Below, piece by piece: positions 13,076 through 21,210 of a DNA stretch of 21,483 nucleotides; the first letter of the stretch is position 1, and each line of letters opens with the position of its first letter. The position numbers were made by a program, and so were the translations under genes. This DNA comes from a virus. The stretch is from IMG/VR virus record IMGVR_UViG_3300025892_003037, positions 1 to 21,483 of that record; one strand, 5' to 3'. The notes under the pieces are model-generated. The model ran no database searches. It had not been told where the DNA came from and worked only from the letters and a program-made list of their open reading frames with translations.

Positions 13076-13486
13076 ATGACATATGAAGAACTGCAAGCAA
13101 TTGCCGAAAATGATATGAAACTTGAAAAAGATAATTTAGATATTGAGTCTCTCAAAATCCCAGAGCTTCAACACAAATACCTAAAATTTTTCTCTTCCTA
13201 CAACCTTCTTGCTAAAAAAGCAGATTCTAATTATAAAATTCTTTATAGAAAGAAATGGGAATTTTATTCCGGAAAAGATGAAACTCCATTTCCTTTAAAG
13301 ATTTTAAAACAAGATATATCAATATATCTTGACTCCGATGAAGAATTGATTGAAGCCAAAAATAAATTAGAATATTATAGAGATATTTTGTCTTTTTTAG
13401 AAGGTGTTTTAAAATCTCTAAATAATAGAGGATTTCAAATAAAAAATGCAATAGATTGGAAAAAATTTACTGAAGGATTAAATTAA
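13076..13486 (+). CDS. uvsY: Recombination mediator protein UvsY
   Basis: 136 residues; T4 UvsY has 137. UvsY loads the UvsX recombinase onto gp32-coated single-stranded DNA in recombination-dependent replication and repair. The sequence has the family layout: an acidic helical N-terminus (MTYEELQAIAENDMKLE), a KIPELQHKYLKFFSSYN segment, a central basic stretch ILYRKKWEFYSGK likely to contact DNA, and a C-terminal helix DILSFLEGVLKSLNNRGFQIKNAIDWKKF. The start has only a weak GAGA-type ribosome site. It is followed after 1 bp by an unrelated membrane-protein trio that separates it from uvsW. Confidence 0.9.
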   Translation: MTYEELQAIAENDMKLEKDNLDIESLKIPELQHKYLKFFSSYNLLAKKADSNYKILYRKKWEFYSGKDETPFPLKILKQDISIYLDSDEELIEAKNKLEYYRDILSFLEGVLKSLNNRGFQIKNAIDWKKFTEGLN

Positions 13487-13487
13487 T

Positions 13488-13925
13488 ATGTCTACATTTT
13501 TAAAATGGTGGTTGTTATTCATTCTTGTTATTATAGCATATTCAGTTAGTTGGTACTTTTCGTTCATCAATTTTTTGTATCAGAACGATTTTACAAAATT
13601 GAGTTTTGTGATACTTGCTATTTTCGCATTTACCACATTAGGAATAGGTTACAAGTATTACAAAGAAAATTATGATTTTGAATTGGAATGGTTTATATCC
13701 GAAACAGTCATTAGTCTTGGTATGATCGGTACTGTTGTTGGATTTATTTTTATGCTTTATTCTGCATTTTCAGAATTAAACGTAAGTGATACAATAAAAC
13801 TTCAACAAAGTATGATGTTAATGGCACAAGGTATGGGAACTGCACTACTAACCACATTGATAGGTCTTATTTCCAGTGTTTTAATAAAATGTCAATTAAT
13901 CATAGCAAAAGATGAAATCATATAA
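13488..13925 (+). CDS. MotA/TolQ/ExbB-like proton-channel protein, compact
   Basis: 145 residues, four predicted TM segments at about 8-28, 37-57, 70-93 and 113-138. The last two carry the MotA/TolQ/ExbB signature: SLGMIGTVVGFIFML in TM3, then a short polar loop and QGMGTALLTTLIGLISSV in TM4, with small and threonine residues where the ExbB channel lining lies. Family members form pentameric inner-membrane channels that use the proton gradient to drive a partner. The partner is the next gene, overlapping by 14 bp, with the ExbD/MotB layout. This protein lacks the long cytoplasmic regions of MotA or ZorA, so it is a minimal core. AAGGA at 13473-13477 precedes the start. No gene of this kind belongs to the T4 set; its function in a phage is unknown. 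Confidence 0.75.
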   Translation: MSTFLKWWLLFILVIIAYSVSWYFSFINFLYQNDFTKLSFVILAIFAFTTLGIGYKYYKENYDFELEWFISETVISLGMIGTVVGFIFMLYSAFSELNVSDTIKLQQSMMLMAQGMGTALLTTLIGLISSVLIKCQLIIAKDEII

Positions 13926-14541
13926 TAGTAATCTAGCATTCATAGATTTACTCTTTAATTTAATTCTTGGTTTTGTTTTTCTTTTTATTGTAAGTTTTAT
14001 TCTTATTAATGAACCTACAAAAAAAGAAGGTATAGAACAAAAAGCGGAATTTATGATTATTATGAATTGGGATTCAGACCATAACAAAGATATAGATTTA
14101 TGGATGGAAGGTCCAACAGGAAAGGTTGGATTTACATCATTAGAACAAGGAAATATGTTTCTTGATCGTGATGATCTTGGACATAGAAACGATTCTTATT
14201 TTGAAAACAATGTAAAAAAGATTGTGCACATAAATCGTGAAGTCATAAACATTCGTGGCATTGTTCCAGGTGAATATATTATAAATGCATTTTATTATAA
14301 TAACTTAGATCGCGATTTAATTACACATGTAAGTATTGAAGTTGTTAAACTAAATCCTTATACCCAAGTGTATCAAGGAACAAAAATATTTAAGCATAAA
14401 GGGCAAGAGGAAACATTTGTTAGATTTACAATGAAAAAAGACGGCACAGTGGAAAACATAAATCAATTAAAACGTGATATAGTTAAAGCAATGAGATTAA
14501 ATTCTTCAACATATCCAGAATCACTAAATACATCACCATGA
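13912..14541 (+). CDS. ExbD/TolR/MotB-like protein with C-terminal beta-sandwich-like domain
   Basis: 209 residues. One N-terminal TM helix at about 9-32 contains Asp12 (LAFIDLLFNLILGFVF), in the place of the single proton-carrying aspartate of ExbD, TolR and MotB. Residues 45-175 form a soluble, probably periplasmic, beta-rich domain: MNWDSDHNKDIDLWMEGPTG, LDRDDLGHRND, then IRGIVPGEYIINAFYYN and a segment ending TFVRFTM. The W-(D/S)...DIDLW..GP.G plus LDRDDLG pattern resembles DUF2135/YfaP-type domains, and I judge it homologous to bacterial proteins encoded beside small ExbB-like genes; that is from memory and should be searched. It has no peptidoglycan-binding OmpA-like domain as MotB has. 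It overlaps its channel partner by 14 bp and the next gene by 4 bp, so the trio is likely co-translated. Confidence 0.7.
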   Translation: MKSYNSNLAFIDLLFNLILGFVFLFIVSFILINEPTKKEGIEQKAEFMIIMNWDSDHNKDIDLWMEGPTGKVGFTSLEQGNMFLDRDDLGHRNDSYFENNVKKIVHINREVINIRGIVPGEYIINAFYYNNLDRDLITHVSIEVVKLNPYTQVYQGTKIFKHKGQEETFVRFTMKKDGTVENINQLKRDIVKAMRLNSSTYPESLNTSP

Positions 14542-15017
14542 CTTATATAATTATAGCAGGAATTATTCTTCTTAGTATTTTTCTCTATTTGTTAATAGAA
14601 CTTAAAAAAAGCATACATTTAATCTATGTAATTCCTCTTTCATTGTTTTTTGTAACAGGTTCATACTTTTATCTTGACAAATTATTCGGATATCCTGTTT
14701 CAAAAACTGATGAATCAAAATTTAAACTGTTAGCATTCGATGTTCAAGAAGATCAAGATAAAATATATTTTTGGATTCTTCAAGAAAATGAAGAAAAACC
14801 AAAGGCAATTTTTGTTCCTTATAGTCCGGATATGCATAAAAAACTTGAAAACATATCTGATCAGATGAATGAAGGTGCAGAATTTGAAGGTGAATTCCAA
14901 GATGGGGAAGATCAAAGTGATGAAAAGAAAAAGGAAAGAAATAACAATATTGATTCTAATTTAATATTTCATGAATTAGATGTGCCACACTATCTGCCAG
15001 ACAAAGATGGAAATTAA
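14538..15017 (+). CDS. Two-TM membrane protein, third member of the ExbB/ExbD-like module
   Basis: 159 residues, starting within ATGA shared with the previous stop. Two hydrophobic helices at about 2-21 and 27-47 are separated by a short basic turn (ELKKS), followed by a soluble region of about 110 residues. That region contains KFKLLAFDVQEDQDKIYFWILQ and KAIFVPYSPDMHKKLENISDQM, then a Glu/Asp/Lys-rich low-complexity linker (113-140). I do not recognise a named family. The IYFW...PYS...HKKLE pattern and the strict coupling to the channel pair suggest an accessory subunit. Its stop lies 11 bp inside uvsW. Confidence 0.6.
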   Translation: MTYIIIAGIILLSIFLYLLIELKKSIHLIYVIPLSLFFVTGSYFYLDKLFGYPVSKTDESKFKLLAFDVQEDQDKIYFWILQENEEKPKAIFVPYSPDMHKKLENISDQMNEGAEFEGEFQDGEDQSDEKKKERNNNIDSNLIFHELDVPHYLPDKDGN

Positions 15018-16482
15018 AAAGAAAAATGAAGTTTATCTTAAAATAGATTGCGAACCATCCGAAGCACGACAAATTTCATCATATTTTACATTTGAAGTTC
15101 CAGGGGCAAAATTTATGCCTGCTGTAAGAAACAGAATTTGGGATGGGAAAATTCGACTGTTTAATGTAATGACAGGAGAATTATATATTGGACTTCTTTC
15201 TTATCTTGCCGAGTATCTGCAACAACAAGAAATAAATTATTCACTTTCTCAGGAGTTGTTAAATGATGCTGTTTCTATTTCAACAAAAGATGTTGAGTCA
15301 TTCACAAAATATCTCAAACTTAAATCAGCTGGAAAAAATGTCAAACCACGTGACTATCAAATTGATGCCTTGGCACACGCAATTCGAAACAATCGGACAT
15401 TACTTATCAGTCCTACTGCTTCAGGCAAATCTCTTATTATCTACTGTTTGGTTCGATTCTATTTAAACATTTTAGAAGAAACAGAACAACAGAATATTCT
15501 GATTATTGTTCCAACCACATCTCTTGTTGAACAACTTGCAACTGATTTTGTTGATTACGGATGGCAAGAATCAAATATCCAAAAAATATATTCTGGACAT
15601 GATAGAAATGTAACACATCCTGTTGTTATTTCTACATGGCAATCTATCTATAAATTTCCAACAAAATACTTTGAGACATTTGGCGCAGTAATTGGTGACG
15701 AATGTCATTTATTTAAAGCAAAATCACTTTCAAATATTATGCATAAATTACATCTTACTAAATATAGATTTGGTTTGACAGGCACACTTGACGGCACACA
15801 AACACATCGTTTGGTTTTAGAAGGACTCTTTGGTCCTATTAAAAAAGTAGTCTCGACCAAAGAACTAATGGAAAAGAAAACTCTTGCAACTTTAAATATC
15901 CAAGCATTAGTTCTTACCTATAATGATGAAGAATGTAAACTTGTCAAGAAAATGTCTTATCCTCAAGAAATGGATTTTATCACTTCTCATTCAAAAAGAA
16001 ATAAATTCATCTGCGATCTTGCACTTAGACTAAAAAACAACACATTACTTTTATTTCAATACGTTGAAAAACATGGAGGTATTCTGTATGATCAAATAAG
16101 ATCATCAACAGAAAGACCTGTTTATTATGTTTATGGAGCTACCGACACGGAAGTCAGAGAAGATATAAGAAAGTTATCTGAAGAAAAAAATGATTGTATT
16201 ATTGTTGCTTCTTATGGAACTTTCTCAACAGGAATCAACATCAAGAATCTTCATAATATTATATTTGCTAGTCCGAGTAAGTCAAGAATTCGAACATTAC
16301 AATCTATAGGAAGAGGATTAAGAACAAACGAAAACAAATCATATGCTACATTGTATGATATTGCAGACGATCTAAGTTCCAGTAATAAGAAAAATTACAC
16401 TCTAAATCATTTTCAAGAGAGAATCAATATCTATAACACTGAGCATTTTAATTACGAGATACATAGGATTCGAATCTCTTGA
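15007..16482 (+). CDS. uvsW: UvsW-type SF2 helicase
   Basis: The start at 15007 is chosen because MEIKKKNEVYLKIDCEPSEA aligns with the T4 UvsW N-terminus; an ATG at 14980 would add nine unmatched residues. That gives 491 residues (T4 about 500). UvsW is an SF2 ATPase that migrates Holliday junctions, remodels stalled forks and unwinds R-loops, ending origin replication. The N-terminal domain keeps FMPAVRNRIWDGKIRLF. Helicase motifs are Walker A PTASGKS (136-142), DECH (231-234), LTGTLDG (motif III), an SYGTFSTGINIKNL block (motif V region) and QSIGRGLRT (motif VI, 432-440). It overlaps the upstream gene by 11 bp. Confidence 0.95.
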   Translation: MEIKKKNEVYLKIDCEPSEARQISSYFTFEVPGAKFMPAVRNRIWDGKIRLFNVMTGELYIGLLSYLAEYLQQQEINYSLSQELLNDAVSISTKDVESFTKYLKLKSAGKNVKPRDYQIDALAHAIRNNRTLLISPTASGKSLIIYCLVRFYLNILEETEQQNILIIVPTTSLVEQLATDFVDYGWQESNIQKIYSGHDRNVTHPVVISTWQSIYKFPTKYFETFGAVIGDECHLFKAKSLSNIMHKLHLTKYRFGLTGTLDGTQTHRLVLEGLFGPIKKVVSTKELMEKKTLATLNIQALVLTYNDEECKLVKKMSYPQEMDFITSHSKRNKFICDLALRLKNNTLLLFQYVEKHGGILYDQIRSSTERPVYYVYGATDTEVREDIRKLSEEKNDCIIVASYGTFSTGINIKNLHNIIFASPSKSRIRTLQSIGRGLRTNENKSYATLYDIADDLSSSNKKNYTLNHFQERINIYNTEHFNYEIHRIRIS

Positions 16483-18197: not shown

Positions 18198-19169
18198 ATG
18201 TTTAGATTCTTTACTGATAAAAGATGGAGATTGTGGAGTAGATTAGGAACACTGACCATTATTGCAGCAATCTGGTACATTGTTCAACTTGATGTGCAGA
18301 TTAATGAATGGTTTGGAAGATTTTATGATGCTTTACAAAAAGCACTATCACAACCTGGATCAGTTTCGCATGAAGAGTATTATGGATACATGTTTGATTT
18401 CTTTAGCATAGCAGGTATCTATATTATTGTGAATGTCATCTTCAACGGATTCTTAGTTAATCATTGGACATTTCGTTGGAGACAAAGTATGGCAGATTAT
18501 TATCATGAAAATTGGCAAAAAGTAAGACACATTGAAGGTGCCAGTCAGCGTGTTCAAGAAGACACATTAAAGTTTGCCAGATTAACAGAAAATCTTGGTG
18601 TTGGATTGCTTGAATCAGTTTTGATGTTAATTGCATTTGTTCCTATTCTGCACGGATTGAGCAAAGCAGTTACAGAATTTCCAATTTTTGGTCAGGTTGA
18701 TCATGGTCTTGTTTGGGCTGTAATTGTTACAGCATTGGGTGGGACTGCAGTTTTAAGTGTAATTGGTTCTAAATTACCTGGAATTGAATATGACATTCAA
18801 AAAGAAGAAGCAGCCTACCGTAAAGAGTTGGTGCATGGTGAGGATAAAAAGACAAGAGCAAAATTGCCACAAATTAATGGTCTATTTGATAATGTAAGAA
18901 CAATTCATTTCCGTTCTTATTTACATTACTTTTATTTTAATATTGCGAAATGGAGTTATTTACAAGGTATGGTAATTGTTCCTTATGTTGCTCTTGGTCC
19001 TAGCATTATTGCTGGTGGAATTACATTAGGTGTTGTAAGTCAAACCACAAGAGCATTCGGTAAAGTTGCAGAAAGTTTACAATTTATTATTCGTTCATGG
19101 TTACAAATTGTAGAACTCATGAGTGTATATAAAAGACTTCGTGAATTCGAAAAACAATTTAACAATTAA
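18198..19169 (+). CDS. SbmA/BacA-like inner-membrane transporter, N-terminally short
   Basis: 323 residues against 406 in E. coli SbmA. The SbmA/BacA family takes peptides and related compounds (microcins, proline-rich peptides, bleomycin; cobalamin in the mycobacterial relative) across the inner membrane, driven by the proton gradient in SbmA itself. Long stretches match SbmA: NHWTFRWRQSMADYYHENWQ, RHIEGASQRVQEDT, LPGIEYDIQKEEAAYRKELV followed by HGED, YFNIAKWSYLQ and a C-terminal VELMSVYKRLREFE. Hydrophobic segments lie near 15-32, 67-88, 137-155, 170-190 and 255-283. About 80 residues found at the SbmA N-terminus, with its first membrane segments, are missing; the frame begins at a good AAAGGA site (18188-18193), so this looks like a natural start. 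No ATPase domain is fused. I know of no such gene in the T4 core; it looks acquired from a proteobacterium. Confidence 0.88.
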   Translation: MFRFFTDKRWRLWSRLGTLTIIAAIWYIVQLDVQINEWFGRFYDALQKALSQPGSVSHEEYYGYMFDFFSIAGIYIIVNVIFNGFLVNHWTFRWRQSMADYYHENWQKVRHIEGASQRVQEDTLKFARLTENLGVGLLESVLMLIAFVPILHGLSKAVTEFPIFGQVDHGLVWAVIVTALGGTAVLSVIGSKLPGIEYDIQKEEAAYRKELVHGEDKKTRAKLPQINGLFDNVRTIHFRSYLHYFYFNIAKWSYLQGMVIVPYVALGPSIIAGGITLGVVSQTTRAFGKVAESLQFIIRSWLQIVELMSVYKRLREFEKQFNN

Positions 19170-19179
19170 AATTATTCAG

Positions 19180-19246
19180 ATTTTAATGCAAAGGGACGCA
19201 TTAAAATTTCCAAGATGTTCTTGGAAAACTCGATGCATGAAGCATC
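19180..19246 (+). promoter_or_regulatory. Three successive stem-loops in the leader of the BMP gene
   Basis: Hairpin 1 is ATTTTAATGC (19180-19189) with GCATTAAAAT (19198-19207), loop AAAGGGAC. Hairpin 2 is TTTCCAAGA (19207-19215) with TCTTGGAAA (19219-19227), a 3-nt loop. Hairpin 3 is GATGC (19232-19236) with GCATC (19242-19246). Hairpins 1 and 2 share base 19207, so they abut. None has a U tract. The BMP gene begins 28 bp later behind AAGGAG at 19265-19270. This could be an mRNA-processing or stability element or a ligand-sensing leader; I could not match it to a known riboswitch. Confidence 0.55.
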
Positions 19247-19274
19247 ACATTAACACAAACTCATAAGGAGAGTT

Positions 19275-20333
19275 ATGAAAAAGATCTTCGGAGTATTGAT
19301 GTCGTTGACATTGATTATGTTTTCAGTTGTTGCAATTGCAGCTAAAAAACCAACTGCAGGATTGGTTTTGGTTGGACCAAAAAGTGATGGTGGATGGAGC
19401 ATGAGACACTATCAAGGAATGGAAGAATCAGGATATGAATTTGATTATGTCGAATCTGTATCAGAAACTGATTCTGCTCGTGTGTTTAATAGGTTAGCGA
19501 GAAAGCATGATGTTGTATTTGGAACTTCATTTGGATATATGGATCCTATGCTACAAACAGCAAAGAAATTTCCAAACGTAAAGTTTATGCATGCCACAGG
19601 ATTTAAGACTGCGGAAAACATGAATAATTATAATTGTCGTTTGTTTCAAGCTAGATATTTGGCAGGTGTAGCAGCAGGTAAACTTACTAAAACAAATAAG
19701 ATTGGAGTTGTAGGTTCACATCCAATTCCTGAGATTATTTCAAATATTAATGCTATGACATTGGGTGCTCAATCTGTTAATCCTGATATTGAAGTAAACA
19801 TTATTTGGATTAATTCATGGTTTGATCCTGCTAAAGATATGGAAGCTGCTCGAGCATTGTTAAGTTGGGATGCAGATGTATTTTTTACAACTACTGATTC
19901 ACCATCAGTTGTAGTGATTGCTGAAGAAAATTCTACAACAGCAAAACCATTATGGGGTATGGGTAATGATGCTCCTATGAATTCATATGGTCCAAATCGT
20001 TATGCTACTGGTCCAATGTTCAATTGGGATGTATATTACAAACATGTAATGAAATCTATTGAAGATGATACATGGAAAGTTGATACACCATTTTGGGGAA
20101 TGAAAGAAGGATGCGTAGGATTGAGTCCATGGGGTCCAAATGTTCCTATGGATGTACAACTTCATGTTGAAGAAGAAATGGCCAAATTTGTGTCAGAAGA
20201 GTATGATACAACTTTTCCATTTTCTCGTGGTTACATGAAACAGGATGGGACTATTGTTCCTGCAGGATCTGGTCGTATGCAAGTAGATTCTATGGATCAT
20301 TATGTTGATGGTGTAATTACACCGATGCAATAA
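19275..20333 (+). CDS. Secreted BMP-family (PnrA/Med-type) solute-binding protein
   Basis: 352 residues. A Sec signal peptide is clear: MKK, a hydrophobic core to about residue 19, and cleavage after AIA at 20-22; no lipobox cysteine, so a soluble periplasmic protein. The mature part follows the BMP (basic membrane protein) periplasmic-binding family: GLVLVGPKSDGGWSMRHYQG, HDVVFGTSFGYMDP, NVKFMHATGF, CRLFQARYLAGVAAGKLT, IGVVGSHPIPEI, then SWFDPAKDMEAARALL. Characterised members bind purine nucleosides (PnrA) or related ligands and feed an ABC importer. No permease or ATPase is in the window, so it would have to use a host importer, as cyanophage PstS proteins are thought to do. The substrate cannot be read with certainty. 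Confidence 0.88.
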   Translation: MKKIFGVLMSLTLIMFSVVAIAAKKPTAGLVLVGPKSDGGWSMRHYQGMEESGYEFDYVESVSETDSARVFNRLARKHDVVFGTSFGYMDPMLQTAKKFPNVKFMHATGFKTAENMNNYNCRLFQARYLAGVAAGKLTKTNKIGVVGSHPIPEIISNINAMTLGAQSVNPDIEVNIIWINSWFDPAKDMEAARALLSWDADVFFTTTDSPSVVVIAEENSTTAKPLWGMGNDAPMNSYGPNRYATGPMFNWDVYYKHVMKSIEDDTWKVDTPFWGMKEGCVGLSPWGPNVPMDVQLHVEEEMAKFVSEEYDTTFPFSRGYMKQDGTIVPAGSGRMQVDSMDHYVDGVITPMQ

Positions 20334-20341
20334 CATTTATT

Positions 20342-20361
20342 TGGGGGAGTAAAATCCCCCA
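20342..20361 (+). promoter_or_regulatory. G5/C5 stem-loop between the BMP and oxygenase genes
   Basis: TGGGGGA (20342-20348) pairs with TCCCCCA (20355-20361) around GTAAAA. Five consecutive G:C pairs are striking in this AT-rich genome. There is no U tract, so it is more likely a 3' stability or weak termination element for the BMP mRNA than a classical terminator. It ends 9 nt before the oxygenase start, which has no Shine-Dalgarno, and so could also affect that start. Confidence 0.55.
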
Positions 20362-20370
20362 TACATTCTT

Positions 20371-21210
20371 ATGACAATACCAATTATAAATCATCTAGAT
20401 GATGATGCTCATTTGAAACTTGATGAAGCATTCAAGAATATCGGATTTGCTTATTTTGAAACGCAAACAACATGGCCAAAAATTCTTAATCACGCTAAAA
20501 AATTTTTTGCTTTACCATTAGAAGAAAAACTCAAATATAAGTACACTTCAACAGAGTCTAATACTGGCTATCAAGGGATGATAGAAAGTTTGACTCCAGG
20601 AACACCACCTGATTTGAAAGAGGCATTCAATTGGTGCAAGTATGGAGATGACAATAAATGGCCAGATCGTAATTTTGAAGATGTATGCTTAGAATGGAAT
20701 CTTGTATTAGATCTTATTAGTAAACATATTTTGAGATTAATTGAAAAGGTATTAGATTTACCAGAATTGTTTCTTATCAATAAACACAAAGAATCAACAT
20801 CTACTACAGCAAGAATGTTACATTATCCTGCTTGGAATGATAAAATACAAGAAAATCAAATGCGTGGTGGGGAACATACTGATTATGGAACAATCACTAT
20901 ACTTTTTACTGATGAAAATCCTGGATTACAAATAAAGCCAAGAGAAACGGATGAATGGATTGATGCTCCTTATATTCAAAATACATGTATTGTGAATGTT
21001 GGAGATTTGCTTCAACGCTGGACTAATGACATTTATGTTTCAACTCCACATCGTGTTGTAAATGAGCATCTCAATATCAGTCGTTACAGTTTTCCATATT
21101 TTGTTCATCCAAGAGACGATGTTCAAGTTGATAGTTTGGTGGGAAATCAAAAGTATGAAACAATCGGTGCAAAAGAATATTTGGTTTGGAGACTTAATCA
21201 GAGTTATTAA
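20371..21210 (+). CDS. Fe(II)/2-oxoglutarate-dependent oxygenase, isopenicillin-N-synthase family
   Basis: 279 residues. The N-terminal part has the DIOX_N layout (IPIINHLD... then a helix and IGFAYFE). The double-stranded beta-helix carries the iron triad H169 and D171 (EHTDYGTITILF) and H227 (STPHRVV), and the co-substrate motif R238-Y-S240 (RYSFPYF). All required residues are present, so activity is likely. NVGDLLQRWTND is also a family block. Substrates of this family are very diverse (peptides, flavonoids, ethylene precursor, thymine), so function cannot be assigned. It lies between a binding protein and GMP reductase, which makes a nucleobase-related substrate possible but unproven. Its closest look is bacterial or plant-type IPNS-like proteins, not the short 2OG-Fe(II) proteins common in cyanophages. 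Confidence 0.88.
   Translation: MTIPIINHLDDDAHLKLDEAFKNIGFAYFETQTTWPKILNHAKKFFALPLEEKLKYKYTSTESNTGYQGMIESLTPGTPPDLKEAFNWCKYGDDNKWPDRNFEDVCLEWNLVLDLISKHILRLIEKVLDLPELFLINKHKESTSTTARMLHYPAWNDKIQENQMRGGEHTDYGTITILFTDENPGLQIKPRETDEWIDAPYIQNTCIVNVGDLLQRWTNDIYVSTPHRVVNEHLNISRYSFPYFVHPRDDVQVDSLVGNQKYETIGAKEYLVWRLNQSY

Follow-up and report, generated by a model that had tools for sequence, protein, structure and literature searches.

Ion-driven motors of the MotA/TolQ/ExbB class drive flagella and gliding, energise iron uptake, stabilise the outer membrane and act in phage defence. All described motors of this class that we found in the open-access literature are bacterial, and the main texts of three motor surveys (PMC9389320, PMC12505986, PMC12204202) yielded neither a DUF2135-type nor a phage-encoded motor. 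Two of these main texts treat ZorAB of Zorya as a motor-type defence system (PMC12505986, PMC12204202), and one sets out recently proposed vWA-type 5:2 motors, whose Asp-bearing partner has a periplasmic domain other than that of TolR (PMC12204202).

We analysed a stretch of 21,483 nt (IMG/VR virus record IMGVR_UViG_3300025892_003037; hereafter the window, with positions given for the whole stretch) from a marine T4-like phage; its major capsid protein is 75% identical to that of Methylophilales phage Melnitz and 68% identical to that of Pelagibacter phage HTVC008M. Between uvsY and uvsW, where the preliminary description had reported them, three overlapping ORFs occupy positions 13488-15017 on the plus strand. 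We refer to them as gene A (13488..13925, + strand; 145 aa), gene B (13912..14541, + strand; 209 aa) and gene C (14538..15017, + strand; 159 aa); A and B overlap by 14 bases, and B and C overlap by 4 bases. We put at roughly 70% the probability that A, B and C together are an ion-driven motor of MotA/TolQ/ExbB type with periplasmic output.

The upstream border of the cassette is the gene for the UvsY recombination mediator (13076..13486, + strand; PF11056, 2.2e-33), and the downstream border is a UvsW-type helicase gene (14980..16482, + strand; UvsW_N, 5.7e-10; phrog_16, 1.6e-103), the listed ORF start of which overlaps the 3' end of C. In Melnitz, uvsY is directly followed by a gene with the size and place of uvsW, with no trio between them, and in HTVC008M the slot holds a different single gene (276 aa) without a Pfam match; because these contents differ, we regard the trio as a cassette in a variable slot. 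Against relatives differing at 8-28% of nonsynonymous sites, dN/dS was 0.06-0.09 for A, 0.12-0.24 for B and 0.12-0.27 for C, which indicates purifying selection on all three and argues that the genes are real. By this measure, A is the slowest-evolving of the trio.

Gene A, which appears to encode a minimal channel subunit, matched PF01618 at 1.8e-6 (28.2 bits, against a curated cut-off of 22.9), and a profile of 39 A proteins matched solved PDB chains of MotA (3.3e-7), PomA, TolQ (2.4e-4), ZorA and ExbB (0.012). These matches place A in the MotA/TolQ/ExbB superfamily, as had been proposed from the window, and A probably has the four transmembrane (TM) helices proposed with that assignment, in agreement with its hydrophobicity and a MotA-type layout. 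The spacing between TM2 and TM3 is ~13 residues in window A, leaving almost no cytoplasmic domain; many bacterial A copies are longer by 70-100 residues, mostly within the TM2-TM3 loop. Residues G78, G81, T82, T123 and G126 are nearly invariant. Thr82 (codon 13731..13733, + strand) lies in the TM3 motif LGMIGTVVGF, which aligns with GMIGTLVG of PomA/MotA, and Thr123 (codon 13854..13856, + strand) lies in the TM4 motif GTALLTTLIGL, which aligns with ALLTTLYG of PomA/MotA. In PomA, T158 is essential for Na+ conduction, and T185/T186 are likewise essential (PMC6677748). Based on our own alignments with PomA, from which the exact residue-to-residue assignment is taken, Thr82 and Thr123 would correspond to the ion-path threonines of the stators.

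AlphaFold2 (pLDDT 88) predicted that the product of gene B has a TM helix over residues 6-32 and a beta-sandwich over residues 47-184, and the sandwich is predicted to be periplasmic. The helix carries Asp12 (codon 13945..13947, + strand), so that B has the one-TM partner with a conserved Asp that is a feature of 5:2 motors, as the preliminary description had anticipated; from its conservation in homologues, Asp12 is the putative ion-carrying aspartate. Pfam, PHROGs and NCBIfam searches returned a significant family for neither window B nor window C, and a B profile gave chance-level matches only against PDB sequences. When B was used in a fold search of the PDB, the best match was 2qng (E 3.8e-4), followed by DUF4425 proteins, including a Ca2+-bound one; no ExbD was among the listed fold matches. 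Matches to PF09906 (DUF2135), the family exemplified by YfaP, were found in 11 of 58 B members at E 0.0018 or weaker; window B itself had no match, and one bacterial B (G096 hit, locus L322) scored above the family cut-off (22.3 vs 22). These matches support the suggested relationship between the periplasmic domain of B and DUF2135; in the trio, however, the domain shares a protein with an Asp-bearing TM helix, and its gene is linked to an ExbB-like one. An OmpA (peptidoglycan-binding) Pfam match was absent from B, in keeping with the earlier view of a non-standard periplasmic domain lacking a peptidoglycan- or TonB-binding part. Residues W53, D60, D62, D87, D88 and E110 of B are invariant, although D87 and D88 belonged to the B search patterns and their invariance is therefore partly by construction; D12, W53, D60, D62 and E110, as well as all of A and C, were absent from the patterns of the three scans.

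Gene C encodes two hydrophobic stretches and a soluble domain, consistent with the two-TM protein originally described, and it also has a charged linker and a conserved tail. AlphaFold2 predicted a beta-beta-beta-alpha-beta fold (pLDDT 83), for which a fold search found nothing significant. The loop between the two TM segments of this hairpin is rich in K/R (mean of 2.2 K+R), and there are 0 K+R before TM1; given this loop and the uncharged N-terminus, the soluble domain of C is predicted to be periplasmic. C adjoins A and B in nearly all loci.

Using tblastn, we found no match to window A, or to a marine A, among named phages, A being too short and too divergent; B was hence used to recruit loci. 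Within 50,697 named-phage records, B occurs solely in Rhizobium and Sinorhizobium phages (27 records), among them T4-like Pootjesviridae, phages of 64-68 kb, one phage of 171 kb and the temperate phage 16-3. All six named-phage loci that were read out contain A, B and C in order as unannotated ORFs. B is also present on at least 363 IMG/VR contigs. The complete trio was found at 167 of 172 viral loci, a set that includes some contigs fetched twice and from which 113 distinct phage B sequences remain in the conservation analysis; the other 5 stand on contigs, or on pieces from contig ends, that measure 4.3-5.7 kb. In the 16-3-like Rhizobium and Sinorhizobium phages, small ORFs or homing-endonuclease-like genes lie between A, B and C (L004, 2106-4994; L007, 2710-5165; L339, 1157-4299), and trypsin-like peptidase genes lie just upstream of the trio in 16-3 and TM3_3_14B.

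The module is not phage-specific. Bacterial genomes hold B at 160 or more places, and of the 80 bacterial loci read out, nearly all that lie on a sufficiently long contig include A and C as well. B was detected in 28/229 gammaproteobacterial and 28/240 alphaproteobacterial genomes sampled (~12%), and chromosomal trios were found in Gamma-, Beta- and Alphaproteobacteria. Both a proteobacterial chromosomal operon and a module of several phage lineages, the trio behaves as an inseparable gene set. The chromosomal operon, the unannotated copies in cultured Rhizobium and Sinorhizobium phages and the IMG/VR contigs all go beyond the preliminary description, which had proposed a search for the trio in phages and bacteria. 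Our searches of the open-access literature turned up neither a phage-encoded motor of this kind nor an account of the bacterial operon. Three alphaproteobacterial contigs (L122, L140 and L143) carry B without a detectable adjoining A or C, and the partners may lie at another genomic position or have diverged too far to be recognised; the L122 genome has three B matches.

In about 10 of the 28 alphaproteobacterial genomes, B belongs to a remote subfamily, and the trio is present in all ten remote loci inspected, one of which is gammaproteobacterial. The B protein of phage 16-3 has 41% identity to this subfamily vs 32% to window B, suggesting at least two independent acquisitions. In the B tree, 21 bacterial rows fall in one clade (100/97), the phage rows around them are more diverse, and six label changes are needed; as the tree has no known root, transfer between bacteria and phages may have gone in either direction in most lineages.

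We counted the candidate ion-path residues among distinct proteins that reach, or are readable at, each position, in loci recruited by B alone. Asp12 of B is present in 111/111 phage, 73/77 bacterial and 10/10 remote bacterial homologues; Thr82 of A is present in 112/113 phage, 69/72 readable bacterial and 10/10 remote homologues, and Thr123 in 112/113, 74/74 and 10/10, respectively. The conservation of Asp12 and of the TM3/TM4 motifs, on which the preliminary description had staked its reading, therefore holds at the sequence level. Exceptions are confined to bacteria for Asp12: a gammaproteobacterial clade (L135, L151, L154 and L165, and also L322) has Ala at this position and keeps the trio. 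Two C-family genes occur in L154, L165 and L322, and the threonines of A are still present where readable in the Ala12 clade. In another bacterial clade (L093, L103 and L136), Lys replaces Thr82 of A, with the Asp of B and the trio kept; this variant is possibly a salt-bridged or locked form. Given these two clades, the family may not always be ion-conducting. A membrane scaffold or periplasmic binding complex, with an ExbB/ExbD-like shape and no ion conduction, would accommodate both substitutions in intact operons as well as the much shortened A. However, the ion-path residues are near invariant elsewhere, the remote subfamily included, and A is the protein that evolves slowest, and we consider a non-motor complex quite unlikely. 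The protein sequences give good support to a motor nature.

The trio is like ExbBD (Ton) and TolQR (Tol-Pal) in the PF01618 superfamily of A, the single-TM Asp-bearing partner and the envelope location. It differs from them in that B has a DUF2135-like beta-sandwich and not an ExbD/TolR fold, A is minimal, and the two-TM C stands in place of TonB/TolA. No TonB-, TolA- or Pal-like partner for reaching the outer membrane adjoins the trio; a TonB-like gene was not among the listed neighbour families, and TolR, TolA, TolB and Pal were not in the neighbour annotations examined. Identity with ExbBD-TonB was rejected because neither the ExbD periplasmic fold nor a TonB partner was found, and identity with Tol-Pal was rejected because none of its four named components was found in those annotations. 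By profile score, the TM3/TM4 motif of A is closest to that of MotA/PomA, and the Thr and Asp ion-path residues match those of the MotAB/PomAB stators; however, phage A lacks the torque-generating cytoplasmic domain, B lacks the OmpA-like peptidoglycan-binding domain, and no flagellar genes were noticed nearby. MotAB identity was accordingly rejected on the missing Pfam OmpA match and the short TM2-TM3 segment of window A. The trio shares a non-TolR partner domain with the vWA-type motors (PMC12204202), and some bacterial copies of the operon adjoin a VWA-FHA gene, but the partner domain in the trio resembles DUF2135, and the trio adds C as a conserved third protein.

Membership of Zorya was likewise rejected. 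A resembles ZorA over the channel core, with weak matches to ZorA models (3.8e-6 for the window and 7.5e-9 for phage 16-3); however, the trio lacks the ZorA-type cytoplasmic tail and the ZorB-type peptidoglycan-binding domain, neither B nor C gave a convincing PADLOC match, to ZorB or otherwise, and no adjoining ZorC/D/E-like effector was noticed. The ZorA resemblance, the defence role of ZorAB (PMC12505986, PMC12204202) and the position of the trio a few kb from immX in temperate phage 16-3 would all suit superinfection exclusion, with a Zorya-like motor guarding the infected cell from competing phages. Besides the missing Zorya parts, gene context argues against this role, since phage neighbours are mostly replication, nucleotide and chaperone genes and the bacterial copies inspected adjoin housekeeping rather than defence genes; we regard it as unlikely. 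Since it lacks features that define the Ton, Tol, MotAB and Zorya systems, the trio should be treated as its own family within generic ion transporters.

In bacteria, a gene for a DUF3108-like lipoprotein lies directly downstream in 28 loci and a VWA-FHA membrane protein gene is a neighbour in 10, and upstream neighbours encode a YkuD L,D-transpeptidase (18) together with a DUF302 protein (14); the YkuD, DUF3108-like and VWA-FHA genes are envelope genes. Phage neighbours comprise recombination, replication and nucleotide genes, chaperones (Hsp20, Hsp70), ClpS, peptide deformylase, Fe-S assembly genes and trypsin-like peptidases. An endolysin was matched once in the listed families (141 neighbour protein representatives), and in the window the trio is grouped with uvsY/uvsW/gp55/gp47, away from lysis genes. 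This context, together with the orthologues that are stable chromosomal genes in many bacteria, disfavours the lysis-timing or proton-leak role that had been among the initial suggestions, in which the device would dissipate the membrane potential or break the outer membrane and so trigger or help lysis. Such a role would suit a membrane location, and an ungated stator leaks ions, with plug-less PomAB slowing growth (PMC6677748), but we hold it to be very unlikely.

In the window, an SbmA/BacA-family peptide transporter gene (18198..19169, + strand; PF05992, 4.5e-132) lies three genes downstream of C, 3.2 kb from the trio. It opens a host-type run downstream of gp47 (18198-21210) that continues with a PnrA-like (Bmp) periplasmic binding protein and a 2OG-Fe(II) oxygenase. 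Marine phage contigs L031, L035, L044, L048, L049, L056 and L060 have a recurrent host-type cluster drawn from Hsp20, ClpS, SbmA, Nfu and an FeS_assembly_P protein. SbmA/BacA (PF05992) was found inside the flanks of 33/172 trio loci, and in several distinct branches of the B tree (L061, L259/L274, L031/L044, L049/L056, L239/L278 and L051) it either follows C immediately or lies no more than ~350 nt away. Conversely, 10 of the 34 SbmA phage loci of at least 15 kb have a trio within 10 kb. SbmA as an obligate fourth component was rejected on the 33/172 count; the linkage is a hint at function and not a fixed partnership.

In the mechanism that we propose, A, B and C would form an inner-membrane energy transducer driven by H+ or Na+. 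By homology with 5:2 motors, the stoichiometry would be A5:B2, with a pentamer of A surrounding a dimer of B helices. Ions would pass via Asp12 of B and Thr82/Thr123 of A, causing relative rotation, and work would be delivered in the periplasm through the DUF2135-like beta-sandwich of B and the neighbouring domain of C. Because phage A has almost no cytoplasmic domain, a cytoplasmic output is unlikely, and because both soluble domains are placed in the periplasm, the output should be periplasmic. Stoichiometry, ion flux, the identity of the ion, rotation and the biological role are what we infer; the computations themselves show the homology of A, the conserved ion-path residues, the fold of B, the unity of the trio, its distribution and the recurrent linkage to SbmA. 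During infection, the phage would most likely use the trio to maintain the energy supply or the functioning of the host envelope; in a subset of phages, the trio may join the phage SbmA/BacA peptide importer in supporting the envelope or nutrient uptake. Among roles during infection, we rank envelope or uptake support first, superinfection exclusion second and lysis third; taken by itself, the envelope or uptake role is a tentative proposal that we think has perhaps one chance in three. The fuller proposition is that several phage lineages possess a complete and functional motor of this type, rotary and ion-driven. ExbB-like A, DUF2135-type B and two-TM C would then constitute a new family and the first such motor known from viruses, and it would power some periplasmic task while infection proceeds, in a subset jointly with an SbmA-type peptide importer of the phage; we place this proposition slightly short of an even chance.

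A new motor family maintained by selection across hundreds of virus contigs would imply that phages equip the host with an envelope motor of their own. The operon is also found in about one-eighth of the sampled gammaproteobacterial and alphaproteobacterial genomes, where we came upon no account of it. Because the trio is present in cultured Rhizobium phages, including the classic phage 16-3, its role is directly testable.
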